From NCBI GenBank assembly GCA_023055355.1, contig JALJCS010000022.1:13640501-13704500 (forward strand): a stretch of 64,000 bases of DNA, given 5' to 3'. Under the pieces are notes generated by a model. The model was not told the origin of the DNA. It saw nothing but the letters and a program-made list of their open reading frames with translations, and ran no database searches. The translations under genes and the position numbers were made by a program. Shown here one piece after another: positions 30,310 to 49,100 of the stretch (positions within the stretch are counted from its first letter, which is position 1; each line of letters opens with the position of its first letter). The DNA is from Agelaius tricolor. Taxonomy: Eukaryota > Chordata > Aves > Passeriformes > Icteridae.

Positions 30310-31038
30310 TATACAAATATGATGAGAAAAATCTCATGCAGACTCTTCACACACAGGAACAGAACCCAAATCCAACTGGGATGGCTTCACCACGGAACTG
30401 GGGTTGGAAGGCTGAGGGGAACCCTGCCCACGGCAAGTTCTGGGCCGGAGAGTTCTCCTATGGAACATGTGCCAAGATTTCCACACTCTTCACCAAGATT
30501 TACAATGAATAGCTGATTACTACTACTCAGAGGACTGGACAGGGACGGATGAGCAGTGGGAGCGGGTCCTGCAGACCACCAGACCCCACACGCTTGGTGG
30601 AAATGCAGAGGTGCCAAAAGATTGCTTGAGATAATTCCCCTAAACGATGGAAATGCCTTGAGATTGCTCTGGATGGCATCTGCTTCTGCTTAATTATAAA
30701 TCTGCATCGGAGTCATAACTTGTGTATATTACAAGTAATTTGCATAATTAAAACAATTAAGGGATCGACATATCATGGCAATTAGAAATGCATCGAACTC
30801 TGGATGTTGTACAAAAGAGAGCTTCAATATGAAACATTAATTCTTTGAGAACAGAATATCCTTCCCATTCCTGCAGAACAGCCTTCCCCACTGCAGCGGG
30901 CGCTGCCCAAACTCCGTCCAGAGGCAGCTTTCCCTGGGACCCCCCTCTCCTGGCGCTGCCCCGGGACCCCGAGCGTCTCCTCCTTCCTTGGAACCCCTTC
31001 CCGCAGGCACGTGTCTTTATTGCCAGCTCCACTCGCTC
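30310..31038 (-). other. TCERG1L: Probable TCERG1L 3'UTR
   Basis: Non-coding sequence directly after the stop codon. Part of it (about 30640-30850) is AT-rich and repeat-free, unlike the surrounding GC-rich repeats. Its extent depends on which poly(A) signal is used. Confidence 0.45.
31016..31021 (-). promoter_or_regulatory. TCERG1L: Candidate proximal poly(A) signal AATAAA
   Basis: On the minus strand AATAAA follows the TCERG1L stop codon after 17 bases. If used, the 3'UTR would be only about 40-60 nt. No clear GU-rich downstream element is seen, so use is uncertain. Confidence 0.4.
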
Positions 31039-31195
31039 TTATCTCATTTTCCGCAGCCTTATCCTGTTTTCCTTGTCCCTCTTTTTGAGGATGAGGATGA
31101 ACTGGTTGAAGAAATGCTCCTGGTCCTTCTTCTTCGGGACGAGGCGGAAGCGCTGGTCCCGGCCGTGCTTCTCGGCGAACTCCTTGAAGGTTGTC
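31039..31195 (-). CDS. TCERG1L: TCERG1L terminal coding exon (FF2 and stop)
   Basis: 157 nt, starting in phase 2 after the acceptor TTTTCCACAG|G. It encodes [20 protein letters not shown], then [20 protein letters not shown], then [11 protein letters not shown] and TAA. FF2 residues include F300, the GRDQRF motif (305-310) and FF at 322-323. The highly basic C-terminus has no further FF domain, which distinguishes the gene from TCERG1. An AATAAA lies 17 bases after the stop. Confidence 0.97.
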
Positions 31196-34100
31196 CTGTG
31201 GAAAAGGCAAAGTCCTTTGGAAAGTTGGAAGGGTGGCCCTGTGGAAAAGGGGACCTGGGCAGCTGGGGCAGTGCCTGCCGCCCCCAGGCTCCTGCCCTGC
31301 ACCCACACCCAGAACCAGGGTGTTCAAAGGGAATTCCACTCTTTAGCCACAGAGACGGGTTCGCTCAATAACAGCTGCTCCTAAGGAGCTCGCTTGGGTT
31401 TCGGGATGGCAAACTTAAATTCATTTGGCTTGGTCTTTCTTGCTAGACCATGATGCAAAAGGTACAAGGGTTGATCTTTGCTGTTTATAGCTCAGTTTTC
31501 ATTATTATTTCATCTTTCCCTTATGGTACGCAGTCTCTATCGCGCCAATGGTGTCTTTACTATTGCCTGTACTGGGACAAGAAAAGGGGACCTGGGCAGC
31601 TGGGGCAGTGCCTGCCACCCCCAGGCTCCTGCCCTGCACCCACACCAACAACCAGGGTATGGAAAAAGGGACTGGGCAGCTGGGGCTGTGCCTGCCACCT
31701 GTCACACACATCTTTCATGGAAAATCCTTTCCTTAGGATTTCTCCTCCTGAGAAGCTGAGAGGGCTCAGGAACAAAATGTACCCAATGGTTATCTGCTGC
31801 TGTGGGATGCAACAGGTGCAGCTGGGATTGGGCTCATGTGCTTGTTTCTAATTCATGGCCAATCACAGCCCAGCTGGCTCAGACAGAGTCCGAGCCACAA
31901 GCCTTTGTTATCATTCTTTCCTATTCTATTCTTAGCCAGCCTTCTGATGAAATCCTTTCTTCTCTTCTTTTAGTATAGTTTTAATATAATATATATCATA
32001 AAATAATAAATCAGCCTTGTGAAACATGGAGTCAGATCCTCGTCTCTTCCCTCATCCAAGAACCCCTGTGAACACTGTCACAGCCAGCCCCAGGCTCCTG
32101 CCCTGCACCCACACCAAGAACCAGGGCATGGGAGTGGGTGACAGGAACGGGATGGAGAATCCTCCTCCTCTTCCTCCTGGAAGAATGGAGAATCCTCCTC
32201 CTCCTCCTCCTGGGATGGAGGAAGGTGACCCCGCAGGAGGGCTCCGGGCACTGGGGCAGCCAGCAAGGATTAGAATGGGATTTCAGAAGGGTTGGTGGCT
32301 GGCAGGAGGCTGCTGAGCCATTAAAGCCACGCTCACAGAGCAGTGACAAGGAGGTTTTATTTCAGCTCCTGCATGTTTTGTATTTCCAAGGCGAGCTTCC
32401 TCCTAGCAGGGTTTTCTACCTTCATTGCCTTTCAGGCTGCGTGCCCAGCTCCTTTCCCCAAGGTGACTCTTTGCTTTTTATTGGAAATATTTGGGATTTA
32501 TTCCTCTCATTGTGTGCCTAAATCAAGGCAGGGAAAGGAGCTTCCTCAGTGCTTTGTTGTCACAGGCAGCTCCCAAAACCCTTCAGGGGTGAAATGCTCC
32601 TGGCCTCTGGGCCAGCACAGCTTTTCCCCTGGGCACTGGGAATATTAGTGCTGGAAGCAGAGTTTGGGTGGGACACCAGCCCAGAATATCCCTAATTGTG
32701 TTGTAAAATGTTTCTTGTAATTACAATTATTCCAGTCCCACGTGCTGTCTGGAGCCATGTGCCCACGCAGGTCATGGTGAATAATTATCTGCATGTTTTA
32801 TCAGAGAAAACAGTAATTTCTTTGTTCCAGCAATTTAACAATATTTACAATATAAACCCCTTTATTTTCATGTAATTTACAAATGAGAGAGCACTGCCCT
32901 AAGCTCTGCCACTGTGTGAGTCTGGATCCACCACTAGAAAAACAAAGTAAAACATAAATTGTGCCTTGCACGCTGTATTTTAATTTAATCACAGAATTGT
33001 GGAGTCACAGAAGGCTTTGGGTTGGGAGGAATCTCAGAGATCATCTTGTTCCAACCTCCTTCCATGGGCAGGGACACATTCCATGAATTTAATGGCATGG
33101 CATTAATGGGAACTTTGAGAAATTATATTTCTCTTCCACCAAAGCCCAAGACTAAATGCAATTTCTGAGTAATTACACCTGCATGTGTAATATGGATGAG
33201 ACTGAACACTGTGGTACTGATTTTCCATAAGTAATGTGTGTTCTATAATCACTGCATATACAGGAATATAAAATAAATGTGCTGTGCAAAGTGGTGCATA
33301 TTCTGAGGGAGAGAGGGAGAGGGGAAGGGACAGGGACAGGGAGAGTGGGAGACACAGATGGAACATTTCCTCTCCCAGGAATACAACAAAATTCTGGAGA
33401 ATACCAGGGAAGAGATGCCACCCCAGCACTGGAAACTGGCATCTTCCTCTTGCTAGGAAGAATTCTGGGCTGCAAAGCTCAGCCTAAATGACAAAGCCAA
33501 GCTTCCCAACCCTTCCTAAGGCAACACCCACCTTGGGGATAACTTGGATTCTTCCAGAAGCTTCTTGAATTCTTCCTTGGCCAACAGCAGCTTGTTCTTC
33601 TTCTCTTTGTACTCCTCCCTCACCCGGGTCTTGACAAACTGCTCGAAAATCTGGCCAGGGAAGGGAGCCAGGACAAGGAGTCATGGGCAAAGCCCCTGGG
33701 GGGCTGTGGCAAGCCCAGTCCTCATCTGCCTCCCCTCGTGCCCAGGAGTTTCCGTCCCATCACCTCCAAGGACTCGGCCCTCTGTCCTGGCAGTAATTGG
33801 GCATTAATTAAAGGGTAGCAGTGCTGGTACTGATCCCAGAGCCCCAGCCTGGTTTGGGCAGGAAGGACTCAAAGCCCAGCCATGGCTGATAAAATGATTC
33901 CATGGCTCCAAGGAATGTCTCTTGATTGACTCATCGTGCCCAGGTGTTGTCCTTGCCCATTCCCTGAAACGAATCCCAAACTCCCTGCTCAGGCTCTTGA
34001 GTAGCCCTTTCCATCCTGGCAGCTCCTCATACATTTTCATTCCTGTGTTTCCTTATTATTTTGTTTCACTTTTTTTTTCCTTAGGAAAGGAGATATTGGA

Positions 34101-37100
34101 AAGGGAGCAAATGAAGATGTATGTGCCCATTCCTGTGGTAAATACCTACAGGAAGCTCTCTGGAGAACCATGGGACAATATGGAATAAGTTCATTTTTCA
34201 TCCTGTTTATTTAAAAAATGGACCATTCAATATTAAAAATTATTCCTTCTGCAGGATGACAAAAGACTTTTAAGGGAGAGAAATACCCACAGAACAGCAG
34301 TGTTCACCTTCTCTGCAAACCCCTGCATCTCTCCTGAATTCCGTAGACTCATCTGCAGACCTTGGAACCAACCCTTTGTGATAATTAATGCCCAAATTAC
34401 CAGGGCAGCAAAACCCCACATCCCTTTGGAGTCCCCAGAAAAACCCAACCCTGGCAGGGAGCCCCCAGTGCTCTGTCCAGTGGGGTCAGCACCAATCCCT
34501 GCCAGACCCTGGGAAAGGTCCTAAACACTGGAAATCCAGCAGTGTCCCTGCACTATCCCAAGAATCCAGGGCAGAACCATTCCTCTGGGGCCATTTCCCT
34601 GAGAACCCAGCCAGGTTCCCCATTCCCAGGTCCCCATTCCCAGGTTCCCCATTCCCATGTCCCCATTCCCAGGCTTCCATTCCCAGGTCTCCATTCCCAT
34701 GTCCCCATTCCCAGGTCCCCAGGTCCCAGATCCCCATTCCAATGTCCCCATTCCCAGGTTTCTCTGGCTCAGGAGCTGTTCCTGCACCCCAAGGGTCACT
34801 GTGATCAAACCTTGGAGCCCCTGCTTGTCCAAGGAGAGAGCCCTGAGAACCACAGAATGTCCTGATTGGGAAGGGACTCACAACTCCCAGACCCCCCAAA
34901 ACCCCACAGAGTTCAGCTCTCAGACCCCAAACCCCACAGAGTCCAGCTCCCACACCCCCAAACCCCACCCTGTGCCTGGTGAGCATCCCCCCAATGGGCA
35001 GAGCCAAACCTGGGAGTGTCCCCAGGGAAATTCTGATTTTACAGAATTCTTCTCCCCTCCCAGGGGAGCTGCTGCAGGCTCCTGGTCAGGCTGGGGCACG
35101 GGGCACTCACCTGGGGCACAGGGCACTCACCTGGGGCATGAAGCACTCACCTGGGGGACAGGGCACTCACCTGGGGCATGAAGCACTCACCTGGGGCATG
35201 GGGCACTCACCTGGGGCTGGGGCACTCACCTGGAGCTCAGGGCACTCACCTGGGGCATGGGGCACTCACCTGGAGCTCAGGGCACTCACCTGGGGCACAG
35301 GGCACTCACCTGGGGCTCGGGGCACTCACCTGGGGCATGGGGCATTCACCTGGGACACAGGGCACTCACCTGGGGCATTGGGCACTCACCTGGGGCACAG
35401 AGCACTCACCTGGGGCTCAGGGCACTCACCTGGAGCTCAGGGCACTCACTTGGAGCTCAGGGCACTCACCGGAGGCACTGGAGTGCTCAGGGCACTCACC
35501 TGGGGCCCGGGGCACTCACCTGGGGCTCAGGGCACTCACCTGGGGCCCGGGGCACTCACCTGCTTCCTCTCCTCGGGGTTGAGCAGGAGGTAGCGCGGGT
35601 CAAACACGATCTTGTGCAGCTCCTTCTCCCACGTGGAGAACGCCGACACCTGGGCACACAGAGCAGCGTTTTGTGAGGCAAGGGGTGAGTGAATGCTCCT
35701 GAGCTGGGCAGCACCCTTGGCGTGGCTGATTCTAACCCCGGGCAGAGCTCTGGTGGCCCTTGTCACAGACATCTTTTATGGAAAATCCTTTCCTTAGGAG
35801 TTTTTCCTCCTGAGGAGCTGAGAGGCCTCAGGAACAAAATGTACCCAATGGTTATCTGCTGCTGTGGGATGCAACAGGTGCAGCTGGGATTGGGCTCATG
35901 TGCTTGTTTCTAATTCATGGCCAATCACAGCCCAGCTGGCTCGTGTTTTGTGGAGATAGCCAAAAACTCCACAATTTGTGGAAGTTGTAAAGCCAGTGTG
36001 TTTATTACAGCACTGGACGCATGTGGAGATTCTGATCTCCACACAACTTCCACAGAGTTGAGGAGTTTTTGGCTATCTCCACAAAACACTTGGACTCTGT
36101 CTGAGACACAAGCCTTTGTTATTCATTCTTTCTTTCTCTATTCTTAGCCAGCCTTCTGATGAAATCCTTTCTTCTCTTCTTTTAGTATAGTTTTAATGTA
36201 ATATATATCATAAAATAATAAATCAGCCTTGTGAAACATGGAGTCAGATCCTGGTCTCTCCCCTCATCCTGGGCCCCTGTGAACACGGTCACAGCCCCTC
36301 AGGGCCAGGATGGGTTTGCTCCTCTGGAGATGCTCCCCAGCCATGCTCCAGGAGCCTGCAGCAGGCAGGAAATGCCATTTTCTGCTGCACTTTGGGCACC
36401 ACAGGCACCAATGCACCACCAGAGGGACAATTTCAACCCCAGAGCTGGAGCTGGGACCCAGCTGAGGCACACAGGGAGGGCTGGCAGTGAACGCCCTGAG
36501 AGCAGCACAGGGATGGGAATGTGCCATCCTGCAGGATCCTCCTGAGCGTGGCATCACAGGGCACTTTGGGCTGGAAGGGACCTCAGAGACCGCCCAGATC
36601 CATCCCTGCCTGGGCAGGGACAGCTCCCACCGGCTCAGAAGCTTCTACAACATCCCTGCTAATTCACTGCCGACAGAAAAATCTGAAGGAAATAAAATAT
36701 TCTAACCACTCCAACTAATTACAAAAGAATGAATTCACTAAAAAAAAAAAAGATGTGAAGTATAATTAAACAGTAATTAACACTCCAGCAGGAAAGCTCT
36801 GATGAAGTAAAGTGGCTTTAAGTGGACTCGTTTTCCTCTCAGAGTGGCTTGAGAGTGGAAAATCCAAAGCTCAGGCTGGCTTGGGGACCAAGGAAAATCC
36901 AAAAGCTCAGGCTGCCTTTGGGATCTGAGACCTTTGGGATCCCCAGAACCCAGGCTGCCTTTGGGATCTGGGGCAATTGGAAAATCCAAAGCCCAGACTG
37001 CCTTTGGCATCTGAGGCCTTTGGGATCCCCAGAGCCCAGGCTGCCTTGGGCATCTGGGGCAATTGGAAAATCCAAAGCCCAGGCTTGGATTTTTGGGATC

Positions 37101-40100
37101 CAAGACCTTTGGTGTACCCAGAGCCCAGGCTGCCTTTGGGATCTGAGACCTTTGGGATTCCCAGAGCCTAGGCTGCCTTTGGGATCCCCAAAGCTCGAGC
37201 TGCCTTTGGGATCTGAGACCTTTGGGATCCCCAAAGCTTGAGCTGCCTTTGGGATCTGAGGCCTTTGGGATCCCCAAAGCTCAGGCTGCCTTTGGGATCT
37301 GAGACCTTTGGGATCCCCAAAGCCCAGGCTGCCTTTGGGATCTGAGGCAATTGGAAAATCCAAAGCCCAGGCTGCCTTTGGGATCCGAGGCCTTTGGGAT
37401 CCCCAAAGCTCAGGCTGCCTTTGGGATCTGAGGCCTTTGGGATCCCCAGAGCCCAGGCTGCCTTTGGGATCTGAGGCCAGGTCCCCCCAGCATCCCCTTC
37501 CCACAGCCGAGCTCCCCTCCCTGTGCCCCTGTCCTGAGCTCTGGCGTTTCCAGAACCAGGAATTCTCTTTTCCTGGTGCCTTTCACACTCTCCTGGACAT
37601 CAGCTTTGCCCCCTGCACAAATCCCCCTCTGAGCTCAGGCTAATTAAGCTCAGACTAGTTCATCACATAATCATTCCAGCTGATGATTCTGTGCTCAGCA
37701 ATTATTACACTGCACATTTGGCAAACATCACCTAAAATAACCTGGTAATTCTGATTTCATCCCAGGTACACCTCACACACAAACCCCCCTCTCTCCCCGG
37801 GACTAAGAAGGGAGAACCTTGAGCAAAACCAGCCCCTGGAATCCTTTCAGAAGCCTTGAGAGCAGCCCAGCAGGGAGAAGACCTTCCTGGAAATGCTGGC
37901 TTAGAACCTGGATATTTTGATGCTAGGTGGGAGAGGGAGCCAGGAGGAACCTTAAATTTTCCTCTTCCTCTTAGAATTTTGTGGAAACTTTGAAACTTCC
38001 AGAAGAATATCCAGATTACATTCTGCCAGAGGAAAACTCACCCCAGACTTCAGAATAAAGAGTGGCTGAGTCTTGGAGCTCCCCCAAACCCCCTCTATTT
38101 TTAAAATGTTACAATAAATATTCTTCTCTTGACATAATTTCTGTGGGAAGCTGCAGAACTCCACTGGCAAACTCCATCTGCTTCGAGCTCTTTGTGATTC
38201 CATCCAGCAGCTCCTTCAGGAGGAAAGGGCAGGGGGTGGTCATTAAATAATCAGATTTAAATGGCATTAATGGTCTCCCTGTGCTTCAGCCACGCCAAGC
38301 AGCTGCTGCTGAGCTGGTCAGTTGGAAAATGTTCAGGGTAAAAGCAAAGTAACCTCTTCCCTCCCCATCTTTAAACATCAGCGAATCCAAACTGTGAATT
38401 TCCCAAATTTCTTTCTTTTGGGAGAAAATCTTACATAGAAACACCTGAGAATCCTGTTCTAGAGCACCCCTAATCCTTCCAAGTACTGACTTATTGCCCC
38501 CCGAGTTCCAATCTGCCAGCAAAGTCCTCACCCAGGGCTCCTTCATGGCCCTTCTGTATTTCTGCAGCATAAATAACAAGCTGCATTAATAAAGCAGCTC
38601 TGGCGTGGGGATAATTCATTGCTGAGCTGCTGAAGCTCTAATTATCCCCCTTTAAAGCCTGCTGATTGCTGGGATAAATTTTATAGGCTTTAGTGCCTGA
38701 CAAGAGCCACCTTGGGCTGCATTTCCTAGAGGAGTGACATTCCCCTTATGGGATGCACGTGGCAGTGTGGGCAGGCACAGGATCTGCACCCACTGCTCAT
38801 TTTACCCCTCCCTGTCCCCCTGAGCCCAAACCCAGAGCATTCCCTGTTCCTGCAGCTCAGCACAGCTGGAATCATCTCCACAACATCCTTCCCAAGGATC
38901 TGGATAAGCATTAATGGCTTTATGCTCCTGGAGGATGGGGTTAGATGGGAGATTGGGCATTGGGAATTGTTCCCTGGCAGGGTGGGCAGCCCTGGCACAG
39001 GTGCCCAGAGCAGCTGGGGCTGCCCTGGATCCCTGGCAGTGCCCAAGGCCAGGCTGGACACTGGGGGACAGTGGGAGGTGTCCCTGCCATGGCAGGGTGG
39101 CACTGGGGGGGATTTGGGGTCCTTTCCACCCCAAACCACTGATGATCCCAGGATTTTGGGTGGGCAGTCAGTGCAATTGGCTCCCCAGTGCTGGGGTCTG
39201 TGGTGATGGGCACCCAGAGCTGGCCAGGACAGGGCAGTGCCCACAGCCCCACGTCCCCCTGAGCCCCTGCTGGGAGAGCTGCAGGCTCTGGACACCCTGG
39301 GGTTTGTCTGGAAAGGGTCCCAGTTCCCAGGGGTGGCACTGGGGACACGGACAGGGCTCGGGGACAGGACCCCAGCGTGGCTCCTGCAGTGGCTGCTGGG
39401 CCAGGCCATGGCTCCAGGGCTGTGCTGTATGCAGGGAGGGCCATTCCTTACCCCCCTCTCCAGCAGCATGTCCCTGAAGTGGGTGATCCTCTCCTCCAGG
39501 GGCGGTGAGATCTGTGGGGCTGAGCCTTCCTCCCCTGCCTGCTCCTCCTCAGCACCAGCTGGGCCTGCAGCCTGGCACTGCTCTGTTCTGGACAGGAAAA
39601 CACACACAGGGTCAGGCACTGCTCTGTTCTGCACAGGAAAACACACACAGGGTCAGGCACTCCTGTTCTGGACAGGACACACACACAGGGTCAGGCACTG
39701 CTCTGTTCTGGACAGGAAAACACACACAGGGTCAGGCACTGCTCTGTTCTGGACAGGGCACACACACACAGGGTCAGGCACTGCTCTGTTCTGCACAGGA
39801 AAACACACACAGGGTCAGGCACTCCTGTTCTGGACAGGGCACACACACACACAGGGTCAGGCACTGCTCTGTTCTGGACAGGGCACACACACACACAGGG
39901 TCAGGCACTGCTCTGTTCTGCACAGGACACACACACACAGGGTCAGGCACTGCTCTGTTCTGGTCATGGCACACACACACAGGGTCAGGCACTCCTGTTC
40001 TGCACAGGAAAACACACACAGGGTCAGGCACTGCTCTGTTCTGGACAGGGCACACACACACAGGCTCAGCCACGCTCCCCTGCACAGGCACTTCCATCCT

Positions 40101-43100
40101 TTGGATCCTTGATCCTCCCTGGAGCATCCCAGAACCTCCCATGCCCACAGCTGGGCACCAAACCTGGGCTGGAGGGGCTGGAGGGGATGGAGCAGCTCCT
40201 GCTGGGGCAGGAGGGACACTCGGGGCCACCAGAGGGATCTGACACCCAAAGTCAAACTACAGCAACGTGACAGCTTCATACAGCCCTGCCAAGGAGGGGG
40301 CACCTTAAAGGGGGCATTTTTCATGGCAAAAATCACCATAAAGGATCCAGTCCAGCACAGCTGTAATAATCCACTGATGCCTCAGGTTTGGCTTTTCTAT
40401 TTTCCCATTCCGTGCTGCTTTAGTGTGTGGGTCTGGGTTCACATCAGGGGATGCTGAGCTCTGTGCACAGAGCAGGGAGACAAAACAATTCCTGCTCCAG
40501 CTGGGCACCAAGGACAAATGATCCAAATCTCAGCCCCAGAGCACAAACCCCGTGGGCTGGAGAGAGAAAAACAAGCAGGGTGGGACTGCAGGGGCTAAAG
40601 CTGGGATGGGACAATGAACTGCAAGGTGCAAATGGAGCAGAACTGATCCCAGGGACAGAGCCCGTGCCCGGCCGTGCATTTTGGGGCCATTTTGGTTCAT
40701 CCTGGGTGCAGCCCTGGCTGGGCTCTGGTGCTGCCCAAGGTGGATCCATGGAGGAGATGCTTTGAATGAATCCCTGCTTTACTCTGTGCCTCTGTCCAGC
40801 TGAACTAGGTCAGGTTTCCCAAGGCCTCACAGCACAAAGGCTGTGCTGCCCTCTCAGGATGCCTGGCACGGAGCTGGGCACTCTGCACAGCCCAGAGCTG
40901 CATTTCCAGTCATGCCTTCAGCAGAGTGTGAGGCACACCTGGGAATGGAGGTCAGAAACAGCAGCTCCTGGGGCTGAGCAGGGAAAATCTGCTGCACCTT
41001 GATCCAGTGCCTTTGGAATGACCCACAGCCTTGTCTGCAACCATTTGACAAAGGAAGAGTCCCCCAGGCAAACCCAGGTGATGTGCATGGGAAACAGAGG
41101 CTGCAGAGAGTCCTGGCCCTGGCACACCTGGAGAATGCTCCATCATTCACCCACACAGGACCAAAACTGCTTTAACTCGCCCTTCTTTGGACCAGCCCTT
41201 CCCACCATTAGACAGACACAAGGAAACTTTAGAACTCACTTATTTCTCTTGGTTTTGATGCTCAGATCATCATTTTCATCCCCTGGACAAGAGTTAACAC
41301 ACTTGTCTGCTGAAAAGAAATAAGTCATTATCAGATTTGAACGAGATAAATGGGGATACAAATTCCTGAGATTGACTTCTCTTCCCTGTCTCTGCTGCTC
41401 AGGTATTTCCTGGCTTTCACCCCCACAGAGGGTTTTAGAAATAACAAGTATTTTATAAAATCCTCAGAATTGCCTTCATCCAAATGGAAGGAACAGCAAT
41501 AAAGTGACCGTTTCCAGTCAGCAAAATTCCTCATTTTTCATTCATGGCATGATTGCTTTAAATCTTATTATTGTTTCACCTGATCCTCCCTCCTCCCTTC
41601 CCTTCAAAATGCAACCGAAGACATTCCTGCAAAGCCATTTCTGTGCTGACAGCCTGAGGGATCCCCTGGAGGTAATTCTGTCCCGTTTCTCCTCCTGGGG
41701 TCTCAGAATGCTTTGCCAGGAATTCCAGCAGCACCTGGCAGGCCTGGGGAAATCCAGCAAGCCCCACACTCCTGAGGCTGCAGAGCAGCTCCCAGGCCAG
41801 GTCAGCCCCTGGTCAGGCCAAGCTCCTCAGAGCTTGGATTTTCACTCACAGACAATGGGAACAAATCCTGAATTCTGAAAACAAATTCTGAATTCTGAGA
41901 ACAAATCCTGAATTCTGACCCCTTTTCTGTTCTCCTCTGCCAGCTGCAGCTCTCCCCAAAGGCCCCAAGGACAGGAGCCAGATCCCTGCAGGGCCTGCCC
42001 TGGAGGGTCCCAGCACAGGGGCTGGCAAATACTCATGTGCTGGATGCAGGGATGGGCTGCAGCCTCTTGTCTGAGTGCCAAAGGGCCCCAAACACCGGGG
42101 CAATTCAGTAAATGACATCAGCACTGGCTTCAGGAGGAGTTCTGCCAACTGTGCCCAAGGCCAGGCTGCAATGGGATTGGCTTTGAGGTCCTTCCCCTCC
42201 CAACCATCCCACGATTTGGTGACTCCATAATGTCCATTTTCTGGGAATTGGCTGGGAAGCCCTGCTCAGCCCCAGCAGCCAGGCAGACCCTGAGCAGCTG
42301 GGGAAGAGATCAGAGCAGATCAGATGCTCTGGAGGAGCTGCCCTGCGCCCCAGGCCCGTGGGAGCCACCAGGGAGGAGCCACATCAACTCCTGGAACAAA
42401 CCCTTGGTGCAGGAGGAGGAATTGAGAAATGAGCAATTCCTCATTTCTGCCCAAATTTAAAAGCACTTGATCCCTCAGCAGAGACAGCCCCAAGCATCCC
42501 GTGGATAACTTTGCTTGACATCGGGGTTTTTTTTTATTTTTTAAGATGTTTGATTTGAAAATTCTAATTAAATCTCAGCAGCAGCCACTCAGCTAAATAA
42601 ATGTGGGAAGCATTGTTGGGAACACTCAGCTCGTTTGTGTTATTTATTTACTGGAGATTACAAGCTAAGAGAAGAGGTAACAAATCATCCCCCTCACCTC
42701 AGAGCTAATCTATACTAATTATGAACTGCTCCAACCCTGAGCAACCACAGGGCCCAATTACAGCAGGGAGGATTAAGATATTTAACAACAATGGAAAACC
42801 AGGAGCATGAATCAAATCTTTGTGGTAGAGATAATAAAAGGGAAGCATGGAGCACAGCAAAAAATAGATTTTTGAAGTGGCACCTATCAGCCCTGAGTTC
42901 AGACTCTGCTGTTAATTAATTACAGAGCAGGAACAATGATGGAGACCATGAACAATGACCCTCAGCTTTGTCTCTGGCCATCCCTCGGCAGGAATTCACT
43001 GAGCTCGCAGCAGATCCTGCAGTTAAAAGCTCCGTGTTTCTCCTGAAGGATGAATTTCAGCAGATAGGCTTTGGAGGACTTTCATCCACAGCTAAAGCTC

Positions 43101-46100
43101 TTCAAGCCATACACAAAAATTTTACAGAAATGTACCCACAAGCAGCTGCTGTGGAAATGCAGAGGGAAAAATGGAATTACAGGCTGTGTCTACAGGAGGA
43201 CACTGACAGAGAGCCCTCCTTGGAGCTGCTTTGCTGCTGACAGAGGAGCTGAAAATGGTCACTCTTATCTCCCTGCAGGGATGGGCTGCTGCTTCTGTGG
43301 GGTTTGCAGGGGTTCTGTGGGGTTTGCAGGGGTTCTGTGGGGTTTGCAGCGTTTGTTTGGGGTTTATAGCAGTTCTTTGGGCTTTGCAGAGGTTATTTGG
43401 GGCATGCAGGGGTTCTTTGGGGTTTATAGCAGTTATTTGGGCTTTGCAGAGGTTATTTGGGCTTTGCAGAGGTTATTTGGGCTTTGCAGAGGTTCTTTGG
43501 GGGTTTGCAGGGGTTCTTTGGGGTTTGCAGCAGCTAATTAGGGGTTTATAGCAGTTATCTGGGGGTTTGCAGAAGTTCATTGGGGTTGGCAGTGGTTATT
43601 TGGGGTTTGCAGGGGTTCTTTGGGGTTTATAGCAGTTATCTGGGGGTTTGCAGGGGTTCTTTGGGGTTTGCAGCGTTTGTTTGGGGTTTACAGCAGTTCT
43701 TTGGGCTTTGCAGAGGTTATTTGGGGCATGCAGGGGTTCTTTGGGGTTTATAGCAGTTACTTGGGGCATTTGCAGAGGTTAATTGGGGTTTGGAAGGGTT
43801 CTTTGGGGTTTGCAGGGGTTCTTTGGGGTTTGCAGCAGCTAATTAGGGGTTTATAGCAGTTATCTGGGGGTTTGCAGAAGTTCATTGGGGTTTGCAGGGG
43901 TTCTTTGGGGGTTTGCAGTGGTTCATTGGGGTTTGCAGAGGCTAATTAGGGGTTTGCAGGGGTTAATGAGGGTTTGTAGGGGTTCATTGGGGTTTATAGC
44001 AGTTATTTGGGGTTTGCAGTGGTTAATTAGGGTTTGCAGGAGTTCATTGGGGTTTATAGCAGTTATTTGGGGTTTGCAGGGGTTCTTTGGGGTTTGCAGG
44101 GGTTCATTGGGGTTTATAGCAGTTCTTTGGGGTTTGCAGTGGTTAATTAGGGTTTGCAGGGGTTAATTAGGGTTTGCAGGGGTTCATTGGGGTTTATAGC
44201 AGTTATTTGGGGTTTGCAGGGGTTCTGTGGGGTTTGCAGTGGTTAATTAGGGTTTGCAGGGGTTCACTGGGGTTTATAGCAGTTCTTTGGGGTTTGCAGG
44301 GGTTCACTGGCAGCTGTCCCCCCGGACCAAAGCCAGTGCCCATCCCTGGTGCCTGGGGGGACAGGGCAGGTCCCACAGCAGCCTGGCAGTGCCACCACCC
44401 CAATTCAGTTACAAAGCACAGCACCTGCAAACAACCACAAAACTCTCACTCTGTGCCCCTCGAGTTCTCCCCCTCCCCAGCAAGGAGCAAGCAGCAGCTG
44501 GAGGATGTGGCTGTTCCTTCACCACCAAAACCAGAATATTCAAGAACCCCGAGCAGCCAGCCAAGGCCAGGAGCAGCTCCAAGAACGGCCATGGCTGATG
44601 TCCCCAGCAAGGGACAGCCAGGGTGGAGCCTCAGGAGCTCTGGCATGGACACAGCAGCTCCCAGGAGCGGGGGAGCCTTTCCCCCAAACCTCCCTGCTGG
44701 GATTTCCTTTCCCCAAATTCTCCCTGCTGGGATTTCCTTTCCCCCAAACCTCCCTGCTGGGATTTCCTGCTGCACAGCTTGGCTGGGTGATCCCCAGCCA
44801 TGGAGTGATGCCCTGCTGGGTGACCAATTCCCAGCTCTGGGAGCAGGCAATGGTGCCCTGCAGGGTGATCCCATCCCCAGCTTTAGGAGCAGGCAGTGAT
44901 GCTCTCTGGGTGATCCCAGCTCTGGGAGCAGGCAGTGATGCTCTCTGGGTGATCCCATCCCCAGCTCTGGGAGCAGGCAGTGATGCTCTCTGGGTGATCC
45001 CCAGCTCTGGGAGCAGGCAGTGATGCTCTCTGGGTGATCCCATCCCCAGCTTTGGGGGCAGGCAGTGATGCTCTCTGGGTGATCCCAGCTCTGGGAGCAG
45101 GCAGTGATGCTCTCTGGGTGATCCCCAGCTCTGGGAGCAGGCAGTGATGCCCTGCAGGGTGATCCCATCCCCAGCTCTGGGGGCAGGCAGTGATGCCCTG
45201 CAGGGTGATCCCATCCCCAGCTCTGGGAGCAGGCAGTGATGCTCTGCAGGGTGATCCCCAGCTTTGGGGGCAGGCAGTGATGCTCTCTGGGTGATCCCAG
45301 CTTTGGGAGCAGGCAGTGATGCCCTGCAGGGTGATCCCAGCTTTGGGAGCAGGCAGTGATGCCCTGCTGGATGATCCCATCCCCAGCTCTGGGGGCAGGC
45401 AGTGATGCTCTCTGGGTGATCCCAGCTCTGGGAGCAGGCAGTGATGCCCTGCAGGGTGATCCCATCCCCAGCTCTGGGAGCAGGCAGTGATGCTCTCTGG
45501 GTGATCCCAGCTTTGGGAGCAGGCAGTGATGCTCTCTGGGTGATCCCAGCTCTGGGAGCAGGCAGTGATGCCCTGCAGGGTGATCCCATCCCCAGCTCTG
45601 GGGGCAGGCAGTGATGCCCTGCAGGGTGATCCCAGCTCTGGGAGCAGGCAGTGATGCTCTCTGGGTGATCCCAGCTTTGGGAGCAGGCAGTGATGCCCTG
45701 CTGGATGATCCCATCCCCAGCTCTGGGGGCAGGCAGTGATGCTCTCTGGGTGATCCCAGCTCTGGGAGCAGGCAGTGATGCCCTGCAGGGTGATCCCATC
45801 CCCAGCTCTGGGAGCAGGCAGTGATGCTCTCTGGGTGATCCCAGCTTTGGGAGCAGGCAGTGATGCTCTCTGGGTGATCCCAGCTCTGGGAGCAGGCAGT
45901 GATGCCCTGCAGGGTGATCCCATCCCCAGCTCTGGGGGCAGGCAGTGATGCCCTGCAGGGTGATCCCAGCTCTGGGAGCAGGCAGTGATGCCCTGCAGGG
46001 TGATCCCAGCTTTGGGAGCAGGCAGTGATGCCCTGCTGGATGATCCCATCCCCAGCTCTGGGGGCAGGCAGTGATGCTCTCTGGGTGATCCCATCCCCAG

Positions 46101-49100
46101 CTTTGGGGGCAGGCAGTGATGCTCTCTGGGTGATCCCATCCCCAGCTTTGGGGGCAGGCAGTGATGCTCTCTGGGTGATCCCAGCTTTGGGAGCAGGCAG
46201 TGATGCCCTGCTGGATGATCCCATCCCCAGCTCTGGGGGCAGGCAGTGATGCTCTCTGGGTGATCCCATCCCCAGCTCTGGGGGCAGGCAGTGATGCTCT
46301 CTGGGTGATCCCAGCTTTAGGAGCAGGCAGTGATGCCCTGCAGGGTGATCCCATCCCCAGCTTTAGGAGCAGGCTGTGATGCTGTGCTGATGCACACCCT
46401 GAGCTCGGGCAGTGAAGCACACTGTGCCTCCTGAGCCGAGAGGGACTGCAGCCAGCAGAGATCCAGCTCCTGCAGGAGGCCTCCTGCTCCTCTGCAGCAG
46501 GGGGAGGCTCAGTGCCCAGCCCAGCATTGCAGGGAGAACAAGGAGTTTGTGCCCAACGTGGATTTCCCTCCATCGGGAATGCCCCCAGGCCGCCCTCTCT
46601 GGCTCAGGGTCTCACACCCCCACCAGCACACCCAGCCCAGCTCCAGGGGGCTCCAGGGGCTCAGGGAGAGGGGAACAAGGCCAGGTTGGGCCGTTGGTTA
46701 CTTGGTGCAGCCTCCAGCTTGCGCTTGTGCGGGGGGTCCTCGAGCAGGCGCTTGATGTCCCCGCGGTGCCGCAGGTCCAGCGGCCGCTCCCACACCGACA
46801 GCTGCATGCTGGGGTTGAAGAAGAACACCCGGTCATCTCCAGTCCACACCACACACCTGCTCCAGGAGACACAGCAGCCTCAGAGCCTGCCCAGAGACAG
46901 CAACGCGCCCACAGCAGGGCACTGCAGCCCTGGGACACGCGGGGACACACCTGGGACAGACCTGGGACAGGCCTGGGACAGACCTGGGACACACGGGGAC
47001 AGACCTGGGACACACGGGGACAGACCTGGGACAGCCCTGGGACACCTGGGACAGACCTGGGACACACCTGGGACACACCTGGGACACACGGGGACACACC
47101 TGAGACAGCCCTGGGACACACGGGGACACACCTGGGACAGCCCTGGGGACAGACCTGGGACAGACCTGGGACACACGGGGACACACCTGGGACACACCTG
47201 GGACACACCTGGGGACAGACCTAGGACACCCGGGGACAGACCTGGGACACACGGGGACACACCTGGGGACAGCTCTGGGACACCCGGGGACACACCTGGG
47301 ACAGACCTGGGGACAGACCTGGGACACACCTGGGACACACCTGGGGACACACCTGGGGACACACCTGGGACACCCGGGGACAGACCTGGGACACCCGGGG
47401 ACAGACCTGGGGACAGACCTGGGGACAGACCTGGGACAGACCTGGGGACAGACCTGGGGACAGACCTGGGGGACAGCCCTGGGAGACCTGGGGACAGACC
47501 TGGGGACACCCAGAGACAGCCCTGGGGCAGACCTGGGGACAGACCTGGGGACAGCCCAGGCACACCCTGGGCACACTGCAGGGACACCTCCCTGTGCCAT
47601 CCCCATGGCATCCCAATGACATCCCTGTGCCATGCCCATGCCAATCCCTGTGCCATCCCCATGCCAATCCCTGTGCCATGCCCATGCCAATCCCTGTGCC
47701 AATCCCTGTGCCATCCCAATGACATCCCTGTGCCATCCCAGCTCTTGCAGAAGGAAGGGGAGCTCCAGGAATCCAGGCAGAGACAGGCTGGGCTGGCAGG
47801 GTCACATGGATCCCTGGATGTGCCCACGGCCAGGCTGGATGGGCTGGGAGCAAAGGCCCCATGGGTGTCAGCCCCTGGGTAAAAACTAAAGAAACTAAAC
47901 CAGGTCTAAACTGATTATTCTAGGGGTAAAGGAGATAGAGATCCTTCTATCAACCACTCAGGCCACAAAGTGCAGAGAGGTTTGTCTGTTTAAAAATCCC
48001 ACAAGAGCTTGACCCAGCTCCTGCTGTCAGTGCTCGGGGCATGAGGCACAGCCTGTGTCGGACACACAGACAGACAGACAGACAGACCCTGCACAGCAAG
48101 GAGCTGGGACAGGCAGGAGCTGGCCCTGGAAAGCAGCACCACCTCTTTGCAGTGCTGCTTTTCCTTTTCCCTGTGCCCCAGCCCAGTGCCAGCCCAGCCG
48201 GGGCACAGCTGCCCTGCAGACCCCAGGCTTTGGCTGCTGCTCCCTCCCTCACCCTCCTCAGGCCATGGGGATGGAAAAGCTCTGCCAGGAGCCCCCAGCC
48301 ACGCTGCTGCAGCCTTGGCAGTGCTGTGCCCCTGTGGCAGCCCAGGAAGGGCCCTGGCAGCTCCTCACCACGGCGATCCTGGCACTGGGGCCGATGCCAC
48401 GGGCTTGTTCCCACTGGGAGCGCTGTCAGCCTCGCTCAGCAGCTTGAAGGAGTGATCCTGGGGACACACAGGGGTCAGTGAGCACACAGAGCAGCTGCAC
48501 AGAGCTGCTCCAGGGTACAAATCCCCCCTGTGGCCAGAACTGCAGGACAGGCTTTATGGACAGGCTTTATGGACAGGCAGCTGCCTCTGGAGCAGCCCAG
48601 ATCAATGGGGGTTACAAAAACGCCTCCCCATGTAGAGCAGCACAGGTGGAAAAGCAGCCAAGCAGTTCTGTCCATGCCAGCAGCTCCCGTGGCACAGTGG
48701 GTGACGGGCAACCCTGAGGGTGGCACCCACCAGGACAGGAACCAGCCTGGGAGCAGCCTGTGCCAGCCCTGCTCGTTCCAGCAGCTCCTCTGGAACTGCT
48801 CAGGGACATTGCAGGGCTGTCCCCAGCTGCTCCTCTGTCCCCAGCACACGGCAAAAACATGTCTGGAGCTGCTGGAGGGAGTCCAGAGGAGGCACCAAAT
48901 GATCCCAGGGCTGCAGCCAGGCTGGGACACCTGGGGGGCTCACCTGGACAGGAGCAGCTCCAGGGAGAGCTCAGAGCCCCTGGCAGGGCCTGAAGGGGCT
49001 CCAGGAGAGCTGCAGAGGGACTGGGGACAAGGATGGAGGGACAGGAGCCAGGGAATGGCTGCCAGTGCCAGAGGGCAGGGATGGATGGGAGATTGGGAAT

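Follow-up and report, generated by a model that had tools for sequence, protein, structure and literature searches.

The TCERG1L exon of Agelaius tricolor at which the FF1 region starts (exon A) is preceded by a tandem array that we interpret as a minisatellite of the exon's own 3' splice site, and among the copies in this array the spliceosome is predicted, from sequence, to pick the one nearest to the exon. We put the probability of this reading at about 0.68.

TCERG1L gene model and the acceptor of exon A

TCERG1L is encoded by the minus strand of the window, by which we mean the whole 64-kb stretch that was analysed (13640501-13704500 of 14687500 in contig C22); positions are those of the window, and all features of the gene are on its minus strand. 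The mapped exons are a WW2-type exon (about 46857-46702, the outermost junction at 46857 being approximate), exon U (41309-41240, 70 nt, encoding the orthologous peptide TDKC..KRN), exon A (39587-39452, 136 nt, donor GGGG|GTAAGG), exon B (35649-35560), exon C (33650-33532) and the coding part of exon D (31195 to the stop at 31039). Exon U ends at the donor AATAA|GTGAGT with two spare 3' bases, and an intron of about 1.65 kb (41239-39588) separates it from exon A. The joined product of the mapped exons contains an FF domain (Pfam PF01846, E 3.9e-26). Its closest relative among 13 aligned orthologues (five birds, tuatara, three mammals, a salamander, coelacanth and two cartilaginous fishes) is that of Callaeas wilsoni (95%), and a partial protein of Mimus melanotis shows 99% identity across 66% of the query. 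Within exon A (39452-39587) the first half is fast-changing among birds and the FF region is nearly fixed (P0122, P0124, P0003). The acceptor of exon U is a CAGCAG (NAGNAG) site with the junction at 41310, and much of the intron upstream of exon U is made up of large arrays (43293-46383), with a 20-bp unit in about 50 copies and nested units of 85, 124 and 334 bp.

The original prediction held that codon phase forces the acceptor of exon A to 39587, and the alignment upholds it. The terminal AA of exon U and the first A of exon A together encode Lys, followed by ACA GAG for Thr Glu, and the resulting ...KTKRN-K-TEQC... aligns with the 13 orthologues. All 13 share the junction KRN-[K/R]-[T/V/I]-E without insertion, with R22, N23 and E26 among the invariant columns of the alignment. 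Because the phase with exon U and the junction residues are both kept, the acceptor is fixed at 39587; because the junction is conserved in 13/13 orthologues, this acceptor is ancestral and the exon start far older than the array. Judged from these alignments, the exon A junction is ancient. Other AGs are present within exon A (in AACAG, AGCAG and others), but against the same phase and the same conserved residues a start at another acceptor, outside the array, is hardly credible. Since the orthologue genomes may be without the array, the orthologues are uninformative on the choice among its copies.

An array of whole acceptor modules

Tandem Repeats Finder (TRF) places the array at 39574-40077 (period 42, 12.2 copies, 89% matches), a minisatellite with head-to-tail units of at least 10 bp whose last 14 bases, 39574-39587, are exonic. 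Its minus strand carries 12 CAG|AACAG acceptors, the real one included, in agreement with the eleven intronic copies that had been counted before. The first exonic bases lie at 40040, 39999, 39959, 39917, 39873 and 39829 in units 1-6 and at 39790, 39748, 39707, 39667, 39628 and 39587 in units 7-12. Neighbouring acceptors are thus 39-44 nt apart, with units of 38-44 bp, which fits the spacing of about 41 bp given for the repeated block. Each of the eleven decoy units (39615-40068) consists of a TG/pyrimidine tract, a CAG and a copy of the exonic block. The 3' splice site of exon A itself is unit 12 (39574-39614), which reads CTGAC, (TG)4, TTTTCC and CAG|AACAGAGCAGTGCC and contains the real AG together with 14 exonic bases and what is presumably the branch point. 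A degenerate outer unit 0, CCTGTGCAG|GGGAGCGTGGCTGAG, lies at about 40069-40094 with boundaries set by eye. Nine of the 12 units have the exonic block AACAGAGCAGTGCC, the other three (2, 6 and 10) a shorter one of 12 nt, AACAGGAGTGCC, and CAG is present in 12/12; the claims that the repeat includes the 14 exonic bases or a shortened form of them, and that the intron ends with up to twelve candidate AGs, are therefore borne out.

Beyond this earlier description, the copied block also includes the branch point. The branch-point consensus, reported as nnyTrAy at a distance of 29.3 +/- 11.9 nt in human introns (PMC8531310), is represented by CTGAC in 11/12 units (2-12), whereas unit 1 has CTGAG, which falls outside it. 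From the branch A to the G of the AG there are 23-27 nt in the CTGAC units, and no AG intervenes in any of the 12. Within the AG exclusion zone and a further 15 nt, yTrAy occurs once and only once in each of units 2-12 and is absent from unit 1. The array has 11 such branch-point/AG modules on its minus strand versus 0 on the plus strand; window-wide, the array included, the same module type occurs about once per kb and strand. The pyrimidine fraction is 0.62-0.69 in 11/12 units and 0.50 in unit 3. Four other TCERG1L acceptors have 0.62-0.75, a range that the decoys (0.50-0.69) partly share; on these grounds the decoys look usable, which counts against our preferred reading. Units 2-12 are whole 3' splice site modules of U2 type and, as such, candidate splice sites.

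Predicted consequences of decoy use

Use of a decoy is computed to add 41-453 nt and to lengthen exon A from 136 to 177-589 nt. Most decoys had been expected to break the reading frame, and indeed 7/11 additions are not multiples of three; the exceptions are those of units 1, 3, 4 and 9 (+453, +372, +330 and +120 nt). A premature stop is nevertheless predicted for all eleven decoys, the four in-frame additions included, and it falls in the extended exon A for nine of them and in exon C for two. Nonsense-mediated decay (NMD) is expected for a stop that lies beyond the 50-55 nt rule distance before the last junction. The predicted stops lie 91-617 nt before it, and all eleven decoys are therefore predicted to yield NMD substrates.

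Choice among near-identical copies

Units 12 and 9 agree in 58 contiguous bases, the 14 exonic ones among them, so that motif strength is unable to tell the real copy from a decoy; units 7 and 11 are likewise identical over 77 contiguous bases. The nearest copy is predicted to be chosen because it alone adjoins the exon body. Splicing is reported to use the first AG after the branch point (PMC8531310), and scanning for the AG is also described in PMC1431707. Under this rule each branch point would serve its own AG alone and the units would act as insulated modules, in which case the acceptor would be settled at branch-point selection, by position. We infer this insulation from the sequence in combination with the first-AG rule. 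Runs of at least six purines occur four times in exon A and not once in the 483 nt of 39588-40070. A short, definable exon (136 versus 177-589 nt) and purine-rich sequence that is absent from the array could single out the real copy, an argument for which exon definition provides the general background, and the downstream donor together with exon length would also favour the nearest unit. Any decoy would yield transcripts that stop prematurely and enter nonsense-mediated decay. The growth of the array is probably due to unequal exchange within a repeat-rich chromosome arm, and the array may be tolerated because the proximal choice would be sufficiently accurate.

Two further candidate factors were considered and rejected. 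By predicted RNA accessibility the real AG does not stand out, being 0.73 unpaired versus 0.74 for that of unit 6. Nor do we argue for selection preserving AG and branch point: 31/44 unit columns are invariant, and the four key columns would be so by chance with P about 0.23.

The array has to be seen against its surroundings. Counting arrays of at least three copies and a period of at least 10, arrays make up 16.8% of the 64-kb window, compared with at most 0.7% in each of 12 10-kb samples between 0.5 and 11.5 Mb of contig C22 and 0-40.6% in eight samples between 12.5 and 14.5 Mb, two of which have none; the distal arm of this contig is dense in minisatellites and the window region is a minisatellite hot spot. 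Within 31038-46860 arrays cover 28%, and 2/11 mapped junctions lie inside them. Random placement of the eight arrays gave a mean of 2.55 junction hits and at least two hits in 77% of 20000 trials; hence, with the junction at 46857 approximate, no enrichment of arrays at the 11 TCERG1L junctions was found over random placement, and the overlap by itself calls for no particular explanation. Both the local density and this agreement with chance favour the view that a hot-spot minisatellite merely happened to overlap a junction and that its decoys are ignored by the spliceosome, without any consequence. Two observations weigh against it. The overlap comprises only 17 exonic bases, and among the 2659/20000 placements with at most 20 exonic bases, a condition chosen post hoc, only 0.6% give two or more hits. 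Moreover, the decoys resemble the gene's real acceptors in motif content, and complete inertness is therefore not expected. Such an inert passenger is a serious minority possibility.

Two other explanations would give the decoys a function. Steady decoy use might divert transcripts into degradation, with copy number setting TCERG1L output as a rheostat. In its favour are the NMD predicted for 11/11 decoys and the human ABCA7 variable number tandem repeat (VNTR) on the donor side of an exon, for which out-of-frame retention of one 25-bp unit has been observed (PMC5954066); the same source, however, reports that retention is unchanged with VNTR length. A further point for it comes from P0002, a 173-aa protein on a 1579-nt contig of another species, which joins exons A-D. 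These exons span more than 8 kb here, which makes P0002 a processed copy or an RNA-like sequence. Its residues ahead of TE are MCVAPL-R rather than KRN-K; the usual upstream exon is unjoined there and other sequence stands upstream of exon A. Intron retention, a different first exon, use of an acceptor farther upstream or a processed pseudogene would each account for this, which counts against our preferred reading. The sequence before RTE also differs in P0005 (Pteropus) and P0125 (Sciurus), both of which are open to several readings. On balance, we consider the rheostat unlikely. Alternatively, TDP-43 might bind the UG runs within the pyrimidine tracts of the decoys and silence them, and its loss would then produce a ladder of extended exons. 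High-affinity binding of TDP-43 is reported to require at least six UG repeats (PMC3985631), and cryptic exons are described as repressed by TDP-43, their use being able to cause NMD (PMC11416411). From unit 1 to unit 12 the UG runs count 6, 4, 6, 6, 7, 7, 4, 6, 4, 5, 4 and 4 repeats. The requirement of six is thus reached by 6/11 decoys and not by the real unit with its four, but the run is shorter than six in the other five decoys, and the nearest decoy, unit 11, has four like the real unit. Silencing by TDP-43 accordingly strikes us as quite unlikely.

Origin of the array and a glutamine at the exon start

The array was most simply seeded by exon A, with copies spreading from the exon start into the intron. 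Exchange of sequence between array and exon seems to be ongoing, because unit 12 equals unit 9 over 58 bp and because exon and decoys have a derived base in common. This base, derived within birds, replaces Glu/Asp by Gln and is common to exon A and 8/11 decoys. At this position the five other aligned birds have Glu or Asp, with G as the first codon base, versus Gln (CAG) in exon A; T-E-D is found in a partridge, two parrots and Acanthisitta. Gln occurs there also in the two cartilaginous fishes and, among the birds seen, only here. Removal of 2 nt turns AACAGAGGAGTGCC, but not the present AACAGAGCAGTGCC, into the short form AACAGGAGTGCC, and AACAGAGGAGTGCC would encode ..T-E-E-C as seen in Callaeas (P0122) and in P0002. 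While the three short decoys retain G, eight decoys and the exon have the derived C. The simplest reading is that the array is older than the G-to-C change and that the changed base then spread over eight decoys and the exon, in either direction, by unit duplication or conversion; this history of the Gln is drawn from outgroup proteins rather than nucleotides. More speculatively, the start of exon A and the decoys may evolve in concert, with the array having written the Gln change into TCERG1L, a proposal that we regard as doubtful.

The reverse course would be that the array does not stem from the exon, and that a minisatellite of a TG-rich type arose beside the junction and either resembled the exon start by chance or came to resemble it through conversion. 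A search of the bird's own genome returned 10 other matches to the array, seven of which were cut as loci (L002-L008) and represent five separate arrays. Units of 4/5 of these align to the exon A unit better than 500/500 shuffles each, and the alignment of the fifth was reached by 2/500 shuffles (better than 498), but this test is biased, as the loci had been chosen for being the best matches in the 1.16-Gb genome. One of them, L006, has a 42-bp unit with GAACAGAGCAG and a TG run in common with the exon A unit. Against this course stands the K-T-E start of exon A, which is ancient; the exon is therefore not derived from the array. We consider such an origin improbable, and the motif overlap with other TG-rich arrays has lowered our confidence in the preferred reading, a minisatellite of the exon's own splice site with proximal choice, from 0.72 to 0.68. 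The L006 array itself (L006:1434-2212, contig C14) has no neighbouring exon that we recognised. The array at L003:1484-1681, with 5.1 copies of a 39-bp unit and 98% matches, resembles a 3' splice site in having CTGAC, a pyrimidine tract and CCCAG, and no exon adjoining it was recognised.

Tandem donors in the next exon and across the genome

Exon B opens into an array as well. A 20-bp tandem array (35091-35559, or 35562 with the end of exon B; TRF 23.1 copies) begins with the donor of this exon and contains 22 GTGAGT, counting the real donor, of which 20 are part of a CAGGTGAGT. It is, in the very next exon, the donor-side mirror of the exon A array, composed of putative sites of the form CAG|GTGAGT that are by sequence candidate donors or acceptors.

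Tandem donor arrays recur in the genome. Three tandem copies of CAGGTGAGT were found in 114 places genome-wide versus 4 for the reversed word; the single word occurs in 200 kb 4 times versus 1 for the reversed word, counts too few for normalising. Manual grouping of the matches listed gives at least 24 separate CAGGTGAGT arrays, that of exon B included. For 20 of the 23 remaining arrays the 5' flank was retrieved. In one (L039, C36:6346450-6347350) the array directly follows a peptide that we take to be Pumilio-like, for which no PDB match was found, and in another (L041, C66) a frame of 97 codons runs up to the first donor. However, other CAGGTGAGT arrays also have frames running up to them, as long as 243 codons (L031), and frame length alone therefore proves nothing. 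Pfam returned no match for four peptides from three of the donor-array flanks, and next to the other 18/20 flanked arrays no exon was recognised by eye.

Known systems of repeated splice sites

The closest precedent is the human ABCA7 VNTR. Located in intron 18, it has a 25-bp unit in 23.7 reference copies and starts with the donor of exon 18 (PMC5954066). As at exon A, a minisatellite includes the exon's own splice site and use of a repeat-unit site shifts the frame, but ABCA7 repeats a donor, whereas the exon A array repeats an acceptor together with its branch point and 12-14 exonic bases. The ABCA7 repeat is polymorphic, with one-unit retention and skipping of exon 19 reported (PMC5954066), while the exon A array is known from one assembly. 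Being donor-side too, the exon B array is nearer to ABCA7 than the exon A array is. Dual-specific splice sites within tandem repeats have been described in UBC and VCX3A, where AG|GT serves as donor and acceptor (PMC10809524). The exon B array with its CAG|GTGAGT has this form; the exon A units, CAG|AA in 12/12, have the form of acceptors only. In NAGNAG acceptors several AGs likewise compete for one exon, yet there they are 3 nt apart (PMC3250501) and here 39-44 nt, with 11/12 having a branch point of their own.

A resemblance of another kind is with CFTR. One unit of the exon A array, with its UG run and T run before an acceptor, has a single counterpart there, compared with twelve copies at exon A. 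In the (TG)m(T)n tract at CFTR exon 9, a UG run followed by a T run stands just before the acceptor. The UG repeats near this exon are discussed in PMC3985631, beside which an action of TDP-43 at the exon A array is purely hypothetical. Among the matches listed in our literature search (titles and abstract openings, with most subscription journals outside its reach), no acceptor-side tandem array was described.

Significance

Minigenes with duplicated splice sites were reportedly studied in the 1980s. Exon A represents a natural experiment of this kind, in which up to twelve near-identical acceptor modules are lined up in front of one exon and position is almost the sole variable. A single RNA-Seq library could measure the weight of proximity and of exon context in the choice of a 3' splice site. 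For annotation the array is a warning: in chromosome arms of this kind, the annotated start of an exon could be wrong by a multiple of about 41 nt. The finding also suggests a route by which the turnover of intronic repeats may lead to a change of coding sequence.
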